DNA from: Amedibacterium intestinale
GTDB taxonomy: Bacteria > Bacillota_I > Bacilli_A > Erysipelotrichales > Erysipelotrichaceae
Direction: 5' to 3'
Assembly: GCF_010537335.1 (NCBI RefSeq)
Contig: NZ_AP019711.1
Coordinates: forward strand, 1,860,001-1,924,000
Length of the DNA stretch: 64,000 nt
The translations under genes were made by a program, and so were the position numbers. Under the pieces are notes generated by a model. It saw only the letters and a program-made list of their open reading frames with translations, was not told where the DNA came from and made no database searches. Of this stretch, positions 3,895 to 52,262 are shown piece by piece; positions within the stretch are counted from its first letter, which is position 1; each line of letters opens with the position of its first letter.

Positions 3895-4449
3895 TTAGAT
3901 TTTCTTTTTTATAAAGTTTTTAGGAAGTTTCTTTAATACAAGTAAAATCAAACCTATTTCTACTACACGATCTATATAATCTGTAAAAAACTGTACGATA
4001 AAACAGCTAAGCGTTAAACCAAGAGGTGTTTTTGATAAAAGCTGTACCAGATAGCTGGAACCAGAAGAAGTAATTCCACCAAATAGATATGCGCTAATTC
4101 CTGCACTTACAAAAGATGTAGGAACACTTACACATAAAGCTACAACAAAGATCCACCATGTTTTATCAACCTTCTTTTTCCATAGGATTCCCATCAATAA
4201 ACCAAACAGCATCCCTGCAGGTGCAAAGTATAAAGCATAACTATCTACGGTGATTCCAAGAATAATCCCGCTTAATAAGCTTGTCAACATACCATAGACA
4301 GGGCCATATAAAATAGAGGTCAAAATAGTTCCCATACTATCTAGATAAATAGGAAGTCTTAACATCAACGCAATTTGTCCACCAACGATATTCACCACAA
4401 TCGCAAAGGCAAGTATCGTAATATGGTAAGTTGTAAATTTTTGTTTCAT
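3895..4449 (-). CDS. ECF transporter S component (CD3073-like)
   Basis: A 184-residue integral membrane protein with five to six hydrophobic segments and the small size typical of substrate-binding S components of energy-coupling-factor importers, which share a common ATPase/EcfT module encoded elsewhere. It begins 18 bp after the nucleoside hydrolase stop, so the two are surely co-transcribed. By context the substrate is a nucleoside or a related base, possibly pyrimidine, purine or a queuosine-type nucleoside; sequence alone does not decide. No EcfA or EcfT gene is present in this window. Confidence 0.8.
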   Translation of the reverse strand: MKQKFTTYHITILAFAIVVNIVGGQIALMLRLPIYLDSMGTILTSILYGPVYGMLTSLLSGIILGITVDSYALYFAPAGMLFGLLMGILWKKKVDKTWWIFVVALCVSVPTSFVSAGISAYLFGGITSSGSSYLVQLLSKTPLGLTLSCFIVQFFTDYIDRVVEIGLILLVLKKLPKNFIKKKI

Positions 4450-4467
4450 GCGGATACCTCCTTTTGT

Positions 4468-5457
4468 TTACGCATATGTGTGTACAAGCAAACTTTCTAA
4501 CAAATCAAGCTCTTCTTTATGTTTATGAAGAATACACTCTAAAAACATATAGAAAAATTCCTGTACATCGACTTCTGTTAATACAACAGCATTTTTTTCT
4601 TTCTTATAAAAATCATAAGCATCTACCACACTTTGTCCTCTGCAAATGCCATCTGTTTCTATTTGTACATTGGATGAAAAGCCAGAACAAATAGCAGGAT
4701 TGATGAAATAAGCGATTGCTAGTGGATCATTGATTACACATCCAATGATATGTTCCCATTCCCAATGAAAATCAAAATAAAATTTTGTAATCTTACGAAT
4801 AAACTCTCCCTGAACAGGATCCAGTCTTTCTATATAAGATAATAAGGTAGGTGTTAACACGATGTTACGTGTAACATCTAATCCAATCATATGTATTTGT
4901 TTTCCAATCTTCGCCATTTCCTCATAAACAATTGCGGCAGCTTCTGGATCTTCCCAATAGTTATACTCCGCTACAGGAGAACAATTTCCATGCGATTTAT
5001 ACGTTCCTCCCATAGACACCAGCATAGCAATCTTAGAAAAAGCTTCTTTATCTTGTTGAATCAAATGTGCTAAGTTGGTAAGAGGTCCAATCGCAATAAG
5101 CGAACAATTTTCTTCTTTTCTTAATGTCTGAGATAAAAACTCTACAGCAGTAATAGAAGTTTCATATCCTTCTACTTCTTCTAAAAAGCTTTCTCCCAGT
5201 CCATCTTCCCCATGGGTATCCAAAGCACTAACATATTCCTTCTTTAATGGCTTATCTGCTCCCAGATAAACAGGTACATCCAATCGATTCATATGTTTTA
5301 ACACTTTTTTTATATTTTCAAATCCCATCTGTACAGGCGCATTTCCACATACGATCGTAATTCCTAAAACTTCTACCTCTTTTGATGTTAGTGCCATCAT
5401 GATCGCAAGACTATCATCAATGCCTGGATCACAATCGATAATAATTTTTCTTTTCAT
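4468..5457 (-). CDS. Inosine-uridine-type nucleoside hydrolase
   Basis: A 329-residue member of the IunH/Rih family, which splits the N-glycosidic bond of ribonucleosides to base and ribose. The calcium-binding signature DCDPGIDD is at residues 8-15, and the central NCSPVAEYNYWEDPEAA segment supplies further active-site residues. It is first in a two-gene operon with an ECF S component, suggesting import and cleavage of the same nucleoside. The leader upstream contains two hairpins followed by T runs. Family members differ widely in base preference, including queuosine hydrolases in clostridia, so the substrate is left open. Confidence 0.88.
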   Translation of the reverse strand: MKRKIIIDCDPGIDDSLAIMMALTSKEVEVLGITIVCGNAPVQMGFENIKKVLKHMNRLDVPVYLGADKPLKKEYVSALDTHGEDGLGESFLEEVEGYETSITAVEFLSQTLRKEENCSLIAIGPLTNLAHLIQQDKEAFSKIAMLVSMGGTYKSHGNCSPVAEYNYWEDPEAAAIVYEEMAKIGKQIHMIGLDVTRNIVLTPTLLSYIERLDPVQGEFIRKITKFYFDFHWEWEHIIGCVINDPLAIAYFINPAICSGFSSNVQIETDGICRGQSVVDAYDFYKKEKNAVVLTEVDVQEFFYMFLECILHKHKEELDLLESLLVHTYA

Positions 5458-5651: not shown

Positions 5652-6989
5652 TTATGCTTTCTTTTTTTTGTATAAAAGAATCAAGTATCCACTAGCTAGC
5701 GACAAGATAGAAACAATTAGATACATTTTCCCATTTGAAGAAGATAATCCTCCATAAATAACGATCAATGCTCCTATACATGCTAGAACTGGACATACAT
5801 ATCCAAAAAATTTACTTTGTATACCACCCTTCCATGCATAGCGTAATACACCAATATATAAAAGGAAATAAAAGATATACATGATAACGATAGGAAGTCC
5901 AGATACATCCATTCCTAAGGCTTGAATCGCTGGATTTTCGACAGTTAAATAATGAATAAACAGCCATAAAAAGGAAAATATACAGCTTGTAAAATTAGAT
6001 AAAATAGAAACTTCATATCTTTCATGGAGTTTCGCTATTTTGTTACTAAATGGAATTTCATTTCGAATCGCAAGTGCATGTGGAATACGACAGCTTCCTA
6101 AAATAATACCATTGCATGTTCCAAGTACCGATATAACAACGGTTACAAGAAGAAGCTTTGCGGCAAATGGACCTGCCAGCATGGATGCAGCTGCTTCAAA
6201 TGCCCCATCTTTCAATTCCATAACTTTTTCTGGTCCTAATAAAAATGTAATTCCTAAAAAATATAACAAATAAACAAAAAGAATCATGATTGGCGCAATT
6301 GTTAAGGCAAGTGGAAGATTTCGTTTCGCATTCTTTATTTCATGGCAAATACTTGGTGCAACAGACCATCCATCATAAGAAAAGGCTGCCGCCACAATCG
6401 CACTGCTTCCCGCTACGATACCTGCCCCATCTACAGAATGAAGCTGTAAATAGGATGGATCTCCAAACAATAATCCGGCAATTCCAATCAAAAACAAAGG
6501 AATCATTTTTACCATCATGGAAGAAGTTTGTAAGTAACCTGCAATTTTTGGAGAAAATGTATTTACCAGATAAAGCAAGATGATATAGAAAATCGTAATT
6601 GTCCAGACATGAGATTGCAGCATAGGAAAATTTGAAAATAACTGTATCGTATAATTCGCACCTACCCAGCATATGACTGCTACCAGCGCAGGAAAATATA
6701 CAACCATCTGAAACCATCCGATTAAAAACGCAAATGTTTTATTATACGCTTTTTCCCCATAACTAATTAATCCTCCGGCATCATCGGTTAACTTTGCCCA
6801 TTCCGCAATGCTGATACCCCCAAAGATAATTCCTCCGGCACCAATGATCAAAACAAGACAGCCAATAGCTACATTTCCACCTGTTAAAACCAGAATATCA
6901 TCTGCTTTAAAAAAGATTCCTGAACCAATAACAATTCCAATGACCATCGCAATTGCCATCAGCAATCCATACTTTCTTGTCTCCTGCAT
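5652..6989 (-). CDS. APC-family amino acid permease
   Basis: A 445-residue membrane protein with about 12 hydrophobic helices. The first helix carries the broken-helix substrate motif GSGIFF (residues 22-27) of the amino acid-polyamine-organocation superfamily; the closest look is the LAT-type exchangers and permeases. It lies alone between the ROK kinase and the nucleoside hydrolase operon, all in one direction. The substrate cannot be told from sequence. Confidence 0.85.
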   Translation of the reverse strand: MQETRKYGLLMAIAMVIGIVIGSGIFFKADDILVLTGGNVAIGCLVLIIGAGGIIFGGISIAEWAKLTDDAGGLISYGEKAYNKTFAFLIGWFQMVVYFPALVAVICWVGANYTIQLFSNFPMLQSHVWTITIFYIILLYLVNTFSPKIAGYLQTSSMMVKMIPLFLIGIAGLLFGDPSYLQLHSVDGAGIVAGSSAIVAAAFSYDGWSVAPSICHEIKNAKRNLPLALTIAPIMILFVYLLYFLGITFLLGPEKVMELKDGAFEAAASMLAGPFAAKLLLVTVVISVLGTCNGIILGSCRIPHALAIRNEIPFSNKIAKLHERYEVSILSNFTSCIFSFLWLFIHYLTVENPAIQALGMDVSGLPIVIMYIFYFLLYIGVLRYAWKGGIQSKFFGYVCPVLACIGALIVIYGGLSSSNGKMYLIVSILSLASGYLILLYKKKKA

Positions 6990-8134: not shown

Positions 8135-8222
8135 TTCAATATCTCTCCTTTAAAATACATATAGCTTTATTATACCCTCTTCAAATATAGAAAACAGCTA
8201 TTGTTTTTATTTTTTCTTATAG

Positions 8223-8245
8223 AAAAAGAGCCCTGTAGACTCTTT
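8223..8245 (-). terminator. Terminator of the cobalamin operon
   Basis: Minus-strand stem AAAGAG/CTCTTT with a 9-nt loop and following T run, 10 bp past the last gene of the operon. Confidence 0.7.
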
Positions 8246-8255
8246 CACTCACCCT

Positions 8256-8513
8256 CTATTTATTCATGATGCTTACAATTTCCGGAAAACGCCCCATTAT
8301 CGCATCATAATTTTTTCTTTCATGTGGATACGTACATAAAGTGCAATCCTTACATCCATTGTCTAATATACGATATGCTCCACCACAATTTGTTCCTAAA
8401 ACATATAAAGGGCAAAAACAAAACAGGCAATTAAAATTTTCTTCCGAAATTCCTTTATGACAAGGAAAAAATTCACAGTCCCTGTTGGTAAAACATGCAT
8501 AATTCCTATTCAT
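8256..8513 (-). CDS. Cysteine-rich small domain protein
   Basis: An 85-residue protein with ten cysteines in pattern CEFFPC, CLFCFC, NCGG and CKDCTLC, followed by PHE. It matches the compact Cys-rich small-domain family (PF04071 type), often found beside corrinoid genes and presumed to bind metal. It is the third gene of a cobalamin-riboswitch operon, starting 13 bp after the lipoprotein gene. A metal or corrinoid handling role is inferred from context; no biochemical function is established for the domain. Confidence 0.75.
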   Translation of the reverse strand: MNRNYACFTNRDCEFFPCHKGISEENFNCLFCFCPLYVLGTNCGGAYRILDNGCKDCTLCTYPHERKNYDAIMGRFPEIVSIMNK

Positions 8514-8526
8514 GATAAACTAATTT

Positions 8527-8946
8527 CTACATATCCTTTGTATATAAGAATTTAAAAGAATCTCCATCTTGAATCTTTAATTCTTCTACAGCAGGACACA
8601 TCCCACTTTCTTTACATGTTTCGTTATTGTCACTTTCATACAGCCACCATGGTCCCTTGTTAAAGTCTTGTTTTAACCCACTCATTTCATCGATGTAGGC
8701 TCCATAGCTTCCATCTTTAAAAACGACATCCAATTCTTCACACTTTTCTAAAAAATCATACAAAGTATTGATTTGTCCTGTCTGTGTAATATCTTTATTC
8801 ACTAATTCTTTTCCATTTACCTTATCTTCTACCACAACATGAAGTGTCACTTCTTTTTCTTCACCTGCTGGTTCTTTTTTCTCACTGCATCCACTTAACA
8901 TAATACCCAATCCTAAAACCAGTGATAAAATAATTGTTTTTTTCAT
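8527..8946 (-). CDS. DUF4430 (transcobalamin-like) lipoprotein
   Basis: A 139-residue exported lipoprotein. The signal peptide ends in lipobox LSGC with the lipidated Cys at residue 20. The mature part contains a DUF4430-type domain, the fold shared with the C-terminal beta domain of animal transcobalamin and intrinsic factor, including the conserved GPWWLYESDNNE stretch near residues 98-109. It is the middle gene of an operon under a cobalamin riboswitch, so the likely role is capturing corrinoid at the outside of the membrane. No ECF or BtuF-type importer is in the operon; a partner must lie elsewhere. Domain call fairly sure, ligand inferred. Confidence 0.75.
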   Translation of the reverse strand: MKKTIILSLVLGLGIMLSGCSEKKEPAGEEKEVTLHVVVEDKVNGKELVNKDITQTGQINTLYDFLEKCEELDVVFKDGSYGAYIDEMSGLKQDFNKGPWWLYESDNNETCKESGMCPAVEELKIQDGDSFKFLYTKDM

Positions 8947-9015
8947 ACTCTGCTCTCTCCTATTTTATATTTTTTCTTTTCTGGAAGCTGCTGTTTTCAC
9001 AAAAGAACGTGTTTT

Positions 9016-9510
9016 TCAATTTCCATAAGACAAAGATTGAAATATCAATTCTTCTGTATTTTCATTTTTATTTTCATATAATGCCATAACAAAAAATAAA
9101 TTTGACAATAGGTTAAAAAGCTCATATATATTTTTATCTACTTCTTTTTCTTTTTGAATCTTTACGATCCATCGTACAATATTCTTGCATTCACTTCGTA
9201 ATACATGTAAATAAGAAGCCCCTATACATCCAACAGGAAGATAAAATTCTTTATATAGTACTTCATATTTTTTATAGAGTGCTTCTACTTTTTTAAAACG
9301 TTCTTCATCAATTGCATTCTTTCCACGAATAGAGCCATTTGCATGGTAAATCGTTTCACATAAAAACAACAAATCTTCTTTATCTATATGTTTTATATAA
9401 TGCATGGCTAATCCTAAAAAGCTTGCTAAACGATCGGTTGCGATTTCATAATCACATTGACTGGATACTTCATCTAAAAAACTATATGCACAATATCCCA
9501 TACTTCCCAT
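9016..9510 (-). CDS. PduO-type cobalamin adenosyltransferase-like protein, short N-terminus
   Basis: About 164 residues when started at 9510. The helical core matches PduO-type ATP:cob(I)alamin adenosyltransferases, especially the C-terminal signature LHVLRSECKNIVRW followed by NLLSNLFFVMALYEN. The usual N-terminal ATP loop (T-K-T-G-D-x-G) is missing. The frame runs on into the riboswitch (to 9591), but that part encodes no recognisable enzyme sequence, and the Shine-Dalgarno before either ATG (9510 or 9501) is weak. It is first gene after a B12 riboswitch. It may be a degenerate enzyme, a corrinoid-binding protein, or an enzyme of altered mechanism. Confidence 0.65.
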   Translation of the reverse strand: MGSMGYCAYSFLDEVSSQCDYEIATDRLASFLGLAMHYIKHIDKEDLLFLCETIYHANGSIRGKNAIDEERFKKVEALYKKYEVLYKEFYLPVGCIGASYLHVLRSECKNIVRWIVKIQKEKEVDKNIYELFNLLSNLFFVMALYENKNENTEELIFQSLSYGN

Positions 9511-9735
9511 CTTTTCTAAAAAAAAGTCTGTTTTTAGGCAGACAAAAAGGAATTCCTTTTTTCTTGAGCCCAGAAGAAAAAGTGTATACAAAAGGCAGGT
9601 CTACCGGCTTCGTTTCATCCTTTGATCACCTTCCCATATTTCTACAGTGGTATTCGATCATTGTCCACATCACGGTTGCTGGGGCAGCTAAAGCTTATCT
9701 TTATTCCCTATTAAGTATTACTACACCATTTTGTA
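9504..9735 (-). promoter_or_regulatory. Cobalamin riboswitch with expression platform
   Basis: On the minus strand the leader shows the cobalamin aptamer landmarks in order: GGGAA, AGCTGCCCCAGCAACCGTGA, CCACTG, GGGAAGG, GATGAAACGAAGCC and the B12 box GCCGGTAGACCTGCC ending near 9594. The aptamer covers about 9594-9735. It is followed by palindrome AAAAAGGAATTCCTTTTT and a short stem GTCTG/CAGAC plus a run of nine T (to about 9504), which could be anti-terminator and terminator. It controls the three-gene operon downstream; B12 would be expected to switch it off. Confidence 0.9.
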
Positions 9736-9804
9736 TGTATTTGATTGTATATTCTTTATCTTCATACGTAAACCTTATGAATCTATAAAACAGCCTCCCT
9801 ATAC

Positions 9805-52069: not shown

Positions 52070-52089
52070 TTGTCCGTAATTGAATAACT

Positions 52090-52262
52090 ATCTTCAGGGC
52101 AGGGTGTAATTCCCTACCGGTGGTATAGCCCACGAGCCGAAAGGCATGATTTGGTGAAATTCCAAAGCCGACAGTATAGTCTGGATGAAAGAAGATGAAA
52201 GTAAGTTTATGCTTTTTTTGCGTGCTCTGGAATGATTTTATATTGTTTCAGAGCATTTTCTT
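52090..52262 (+). promoter_or_regulatory. FMN riboswitch with terminator
   Basis: The RFN consensus is clear: TTCAGGGCAGGGTG, TTCCCTACCGGTGGT, AGCCCACGAGCCG, TGGTGAAATTCCAAAGCCGA and CAGTATAGTCTGGATG, spanning about 52090-52196. A long hairpin with arms TGCTCTG/CAGAGCA (52223-52255) and a T-rich tail follows and should stop transcription when FMN binds. Confidence 0.95.

Follow-up and report, generated by a model that had tools for sequence, protein, structure and literature searches.

A riboswitch-controlled operon of Amedibacterium intestinale with a loop-less PduO-like protein and a transcobalamin-like lipoprotein: a probable module for B12 uptake and handling

CbrT was reportedly defined by Rodionov in 2009. 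In L. delbrueckii, the genes for B12 uptake, an adenosyltransferase and NrdJ lie together in the cluster nrdJ-cbrS-cbrT-pduO (PMC5997447). The isolated beta domain of human transcobalamin has been crystallised with cyanocobalamin (5np4; PMC5599065), and Burroughs et al. assigned bacterial proteins of this type to a transcobalamin-like SLBB clade in 2007, proposing a role for them, together with CbiO/CbiQ-type transporters, in B12 scavenging by low-GC Gram-positives (PMC1796856). In Bacteroides, the surface lipoprotein BtuG captures B12 for the outer-membrane protein BtuB (PMC6143338, PMC10404256).

The locus analysed here lies in a window of 64,000 nucleotides from Amedibacterium intestinale (contig NZ_AP019711.1, positions 1,860,001 to 1,924,000) and recalls each of these systems in part. 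Compared with the L. delbrueckii cluster, its operon family adds a riboswitch, a DUF4430 lipoprotein and a PduO-like protein without the N-terminal ATP loop, and in the window genome CbrT is unlinked. The lipoprotein shares its fold with the beta domains of transcobalamin, intrinsic factor and haptocorrin, and both kinds of protein are secreted or surface-anchored; the bacterial one, however, is free-standing, has no alpha/alpha toroid and is a putative cobalamin binder. The likeness to BtuG is a functional analogy alone, with no homology claimed, and the BtuB partnership of BtuG sets it apart from the window lipoprotein.

The riboswitch-led locus

A covariance model placed a cobalamin riboswitch (RF00174) ahead of three minus-strand genes encoding the PduO-like protein, the lipoprotein and a cysteine-rich protein (Table 1). 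The match scored 75.9 bits against a gathering threshold of 31.5 (E = 6.6e-17 for the window), covered model positions 1-189 and was the sole copy in the 2.49 Mb genome, bearing out the B12 riboswitch of the initial annotation; its end lies 11 bases past position 9735, the limit given in that annotation. Full-length aptamers of this family usually bind adenosylcobalamin (AdoCbl). The gaps between the genes are 69 bases (first to second) and 13 bases (second to third), and the flanking genes, a GNAT gene upstream and a ROK kinase gene downstream, look unrelated. Promoter scans of the region gave nothing better than shuffled sequences did.

Between the aptamer and the first gene lies a hairpin resembling an intrinsic terminator, and the region contained two terminator-like sites against a mean of 0.5 in shuffles. 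When folded alone, this stretch preferred a different hairpin, and for this reason we only infer that the riboswitch switches. The hairpin 3' of the third gene had a folding energy of -11.9 kcal/mol, with a modest z of -1.7 against shuffles.

The third product, for which ten cysteines had been correctly noted in the initial annotation, matched PF04071 with 88.5 bits (cut-off 27). Its gene was found at just two loci, the window and its closest sister locus (L071), whose homologue has eight of the ten cysteines in common, and a search of the PDB returned no useful match for it. In methanogen CobD, a related terminal cysteine-rich domain carries a metal centre needed for activity, which offers a lead only.

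Elsewhere in the window we observed an ECF S component related to the CD3073 family, adjoining a nucleoside hydrolase gene (3895-5457, minus strand); the same pair lies beside the B12 operon at locus L034. The plus strand carries an FMN riboswitch (52086-52200, 118.7 bits) and a pemK RNA motif (RF02913; 58044-58141, 55.2 bits).

Table 1. Features of the operon, with positions in the window
Feature	Positions	Strand	Evidence or remark
Cobalamin riboswitch aptamer (RF00174)	9577..9746	-	Covariance model, full length
Terminator-like hairpin with U8, probable riboswitch expression platform	9526..9543	-	GTCTGCCTAAAAACAGAC TTTTTTTT
Loop-less PduO-like protein, 164 aa	9016..9510	-	PF01923; PduO fold; loop-less clade
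Lipoprotein, DUF4430 / transcobalamin beta-domain fold, 139 aa	8527..8946	-	Lipobox LSGC; AF2 fold; homologues adjoin CbrT
Cysteine-rich small protein, 85 aa, 10 Cys	8256..8513	-	PF04071; equal position in L071
Terminator-like hairpin closing the operon	8221..8249	-	RNA fold and U run

PduO-like proteins without the ATP loop

The first product matched PF01923 with 48.8 bits (cut-off 24), and because the match begins only at model position 32, the N-terminal ATP loop is absent, in agreement with the initial annotation. The loop (TKTGD; T/S-K-x-G-D-x-G) was absent from all close homologues and from the whole clade. The reading frame starts at the ATG at 9510 or at one at 9501; a longer, TTG-started frame reaches inside the riboswitch and is unlikely. 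Loss of the loop through a wrong start codon or a frameshift was rejected, because the ATG at 9510 follows the riboswitch by only 66 nt and because no close homologue has the loop. A match to the EutT model was also sought and none was obtained, so membership of that family was rejected. In a tree of 29 sequences, 23 loop-less proteins fell on one side of a branch with a support of 100/100, and they came from four phyla, namely Bacillota, Pseudomonadota, Bacteroidota and Verrucomicrobiota.

The predicted structure has the five-helix fold common to PduO-type adenosyltransferases such as human MMAB and L. reuteri PduO (Z 18-21.6 to PduO structures), whereas the score against the NCBI equivalog TIGR00636 (64.5 bits) fell short of its cut-off of 108.45. 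When the clade was aligned with MMAB, for which residue roles have been described (PMC9262797), R190 was replaced by Lys and E193 by a hydrophobic residue, and S217 was not retained, its position being variable. The CRRAER and NRLSD motifs are degenerate, although the N of NRLSD and the Phe of FVLP are kept, and the loop-less proteins have conserved motifs of their own (CDYEI-TD, NGS-RG and S-SY). The Erysipelotrichaceae clade, to which the window protein belongs, retains the FVLP Phe (F89), the TDEL Asp (Asp26) and Arg105, the equivalent of MMAB R186.

The two kinds of gene also differ in their surroundings. In Bacillota, the loop-less genes adjoin those for CbrT and the lipoprotein. Among 98 related genomes, loop-containing adenosyltransferases occurred in ten, in all ten within about 0.5 kb of an NrdJ match, whereas loop-less proteins occurred in nine (ten copies), none beside NrdJ; three genomes had both kinds, at separate places. 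In Endozoicomonas, a riboswitch, a canonical adenosyltransferase, btuF, btuB and a loop-less protein form a single gene run. Among Gram-negative loci, 34 of 63 had btuB or btuF no more than 3.5 kb from the loop-less gene, which was often flanked by trmA and btuB; the loci farther from btuB and btuF were mostly from Aeromonas, near trmA. Cobalamin riboswitches were present at most of the sampled loci outside Aeromonas, several of them upstream of btuB or btuF rather than of the loop-less gene. Two further arrangements were seen: a DUF71 (Diphthami_syn_2) gene in the btuB region with the loop-less gene in several Vibrionaceae (L085, L086, L088, L091, L101, L128 and L138), a placement that fits the proposed DUF71-B12 group (PMC3541065), and tandem loop-less genes, the second diverged, starting near position 6001 of a Verrucomicrobiota MAG locus (L145).

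In the window genome, the operon's first gene is the sole adenosyltransferase-like gene, and there is no loop-containing one. Searches of this genome for CobA/BtuR, NrdJ and QueG found none, and no AdoCbl-dependent enzyme was detected; the only B12-binding domain detected is that of a DUF4080-containing radical SAM protein. A candidate B12-dependent ribonucleotide reductase was rejected: it matched TIGR02504 only below the cut-off and is an alpha subunit of class I.

The protein could still be an adenosyltransferase with a different ATP site. EutT and CobA show that the TKTGD loop is not the sole solution for ATP, and a working enzyme of this sort would be a source of AdoCbl in a genome that has no other, the AdoCbl-type riboswitch implying that the cell contains AdoCbl; the fold and the three residues retained in the Erysipelotrichaceae clade agree with such a role. 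We nevertheless consider it unlikely, because the loop is missing clade-wide together with the active-site residues above, canonical enzymes stand alongside in the three family genomes and in the Endozoicomonas operons, the genes never adjoin the AdoCbl user NrdJ, searches of the window genome turned up no AdoCbl-dependent enzyme, and the equivalog score is low. The clade, with its full branch support and its co-existence with canonical enzymes, is more plausibly a separate relative of the adenosyltransferases that handles corrinoids than a crippled member of them, which replaces the initial reading of the protein as an adenosyltransferase lacking the loop. Judged from sequence and gene context, it is probably a corrinoid handler and not the adenosyltransferase of these cells. 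It appears to follow uptake and not coenzyme synthesis, and it probably receives or processes imported corrinoid.

The lipoprotein and its association with CbrT

The lipoprotein scored 18.5 bits against Pfam DUF4430 (PF14478), under the cut-off of 23.8, and a profile of 26 of its relatives matched the solved DUF4430 protein 3U7Z (E = 2.7e-16). Its AF2 model had a pLDDT of 96-98 from about residue 31 onward, and in structural comparison it came closest to 3U7Z (Z 12.6), followed by the intrinsic factor, transcobalamin and haptocorrin beta domains (Z 11-12); the next fold stood at Z 6.4. The kinship with the transcobalamin beta domain that had been proposed initially, with a structural comparison to intrinsic factor as its check, was thus upheld; the fold is the same over about 100 residues, at an identity of only 11-16%. 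Members linked to riboswitches share a conserved NNxxCxxxGxC stretch, which is missing from the lipoproteins of three loci of the near family (L061-L063) that also have no riboswitch or adenosyltransferase gene. Since B12 scavenging was already proposed in 2007 (PMC1796856), the role of the lipoprotein is a known prediction that is strengthened here.

Within the 98 related genomes, the lipoprotein had 36 matches in 34 genomes, and the gene beside it usually encoded a membrane protein of 160-190 aa. The only PDB match of a broad profile of these neighbours was 6FNP, the CbrT of L. delbrueckii ECF-CbrT (E = 8.9e-18), which marks these neighbours as S components homologous to CbrT. The NrdJ-linked subset matched 6FNP with E = 6.6e-17, and the set linked to loop-less proteins, which includes the copy of the window genome, with E = 0.0021. 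A phmmer search of the PDB with the window genome's CbrT alone found no match, so its link to 6FNP rests on the profiles.

We then compared 17 named Erysipelotrichaceae loci, found through the PduO-like protein, in Faecalitalea, Faecalicoccus, Longicatena, Holdemania, Anaerorhabdus and others. The possibility, raised in the initial annotation, that the genes of this set never co-occur under cobalamin riboswitches did not hold: a DUF4430 lipoprotein gene stood beside the PduO-like gene at all 17 loci, mostly under a cobalamin riboswitch where tested. At 16 of the 17, CbrT lay within about 1 kb, between the two, giving the order riboswitch, loop-less PduO, CbrT, DUF4430. The exception was the sister locus L071, which has the order of the window, that is, cobalamin riboswitch, PduO-like protein, lipoprotein and cysteine-rich protein. 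In the window genome, a probable CbrT gene stands alone at C1:1548038-1548526 (E = 1.3e-62, a score as high as those of operon copies), and an ecfA-ecfA-ecfT-truA group lies near C1:1459180-1461636; the transporter has therefore probably been separated from the operon in this lineage and is not absent. The initial statement that no transporter is included is correct for this locus but not for the module. That the operon is decaying in this lineage, with CbrT gone and the remaining genes as relics, is suggested by the lack of CbrT at the window and at L071 but is very improbable, given that the three genes and the riboswitch are intact, CbrT survives elsewhere and the sister locus retains the same gene order.

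In a survey of 395 genomes drawn evenly from the class, 117 had DUF4430; a CbrT-like S component lay on the same strand within 300 bp in 65 of these and within 4 kb in 92. Of 20 DUF4430 loci sampled, only six had a cobalamin-type riboswitch, so members of the family need not all be B12 proteins; among 20 sampled S-component loci, ten had one. Because the S-component profile is broad, some of the pairs may carry other substrates. Several arrangements were recorded in passing. Six loci (L049, L051, L052, L053, L057 and L058) unite a riboswitch, DUF4430, CbrT, a loop-containing adenosyltransferase and class II NrdJ in one operon, and there a transmembrane anchor replaces the lipobox of the DUF4430 protein. 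At L040, L041, L044, L054 and L060, which have no adenosyltransferase gene, CbrT and DUF4430 have as their neighbour a radical SAM gene of the YgiQ type (about 610 aa), pointing to a connection of YgiQ with B12. Two CbrT-like genes of class-level genomes (L219 and L225, in G217 and G286) contain in-frame TGA, evidently read as an amino acid, and follow strong cobalamin riboswitches (107 and 114 bits).

These data also bear on whether the ligand of the lipoprotein is a corrinoid at all. It might instead be a metal, a peptide or a wall component, with B12 control serving some other reason: 3U7Z is labelled as putatively metal-binding, many DUF4430 proteins are encoded away from any cobalamin riboswitch, and the identity to transcobalamin is low. 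We regard this as improbable, since the beta-domain fold is well separated from other folds, the pairing with CbrT and cobalamin riboswitches recurs, and B12 scavenging had been predicted independently.

A proposed route for imported corrinoid

Because relatives place these genes around a known B12 transporter, the operon most likely serves as a module for taking up and handling B12. The surface capture and intracellular handling proposed in the initial annotation is thus retained, on the strength of the riboswitch and the gene association, without its transporter-free and adenosyltransferase aspects. We favour, with reasonable though not high confidence, a fuller model in which the operon serves corrinoid capture and handling under B12 starvation. 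When intracellular corrinoid is high, its binding to the riboswitch would let the hairpin at 9543-9526 stop transcription, as the RNA family and the terminator suggest; when it is low, all three proteins would be produced. The lipoprotein, on the outer face of the membrane, would take cobalamin through its transcobalamin-type beta-grasp domain, binding being predicted from the observed fold, and would hand it to ECF-CbrT, whose S component is encoded elsewhere, a transfer to which the observed gene association points. The loop-less PduO-like protein would hold the incoming corrinoid in a pocket of the adenosyltransferase type, make no AdoCbl and pass its cargo onward, the radical SAM/DUF4080 protein being a candidate recipient as the bearer of the only B12-binding domain detected. 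The cysteine-rich protein may be a partner in metal or Fe-S redox chemistry or in ligand exchange.

Several observations sit uneasily with this model. An AdoCbl-sensing aptamer is awkward for it if the cell is unable to make AdoCbl. The DUF4430 family is broad and the window lipoprotein falls under its cut-off, and about half of the Gram-negative loop-less loci lie more than 3.5 kb from btuB or btuF. In addition, ECF-CbrT needs no capture protein for its activity in proteoliposomes (PMC5997447).

A wider proposal is more tentative, and we hold it at somewhat less than even chances: the loop-less PduO proteins may form an unrecognised family of cytosolic B12 acceptors that kept the adenosyltransferase pocket and lost the ATP chemistry, serving at least two unrelated import systems, ECF-CbrT with its lipoprotein and BtuB/BtuF, and the lipoprotein may be the first known extracellular capture subunit of an ECF transporter. 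Among open papers, we found none that treats CbrT and DUF4430 together, and against the open papers checked the partnership with CbrT and the link to the riboswitch appear to be new, as does, most notably, the association of a loop-less clade with two unrelated systems of B12 import.

Surface scavenging of B12 is well studied in Bacteroides and poorly known in Gram-positive gut bacteria, for which this operon provides a testable candidate, in which a bacterial version of human transcobalamin's vitamin-binding domain would work with a characterised B12 transporter. Furthermore, the genes annotated as cobalamin adenosyltransferase are probably of two functional kinds, separable by the ATP loop, and this bears on any prediction of which organisms produce coenzyme B12.
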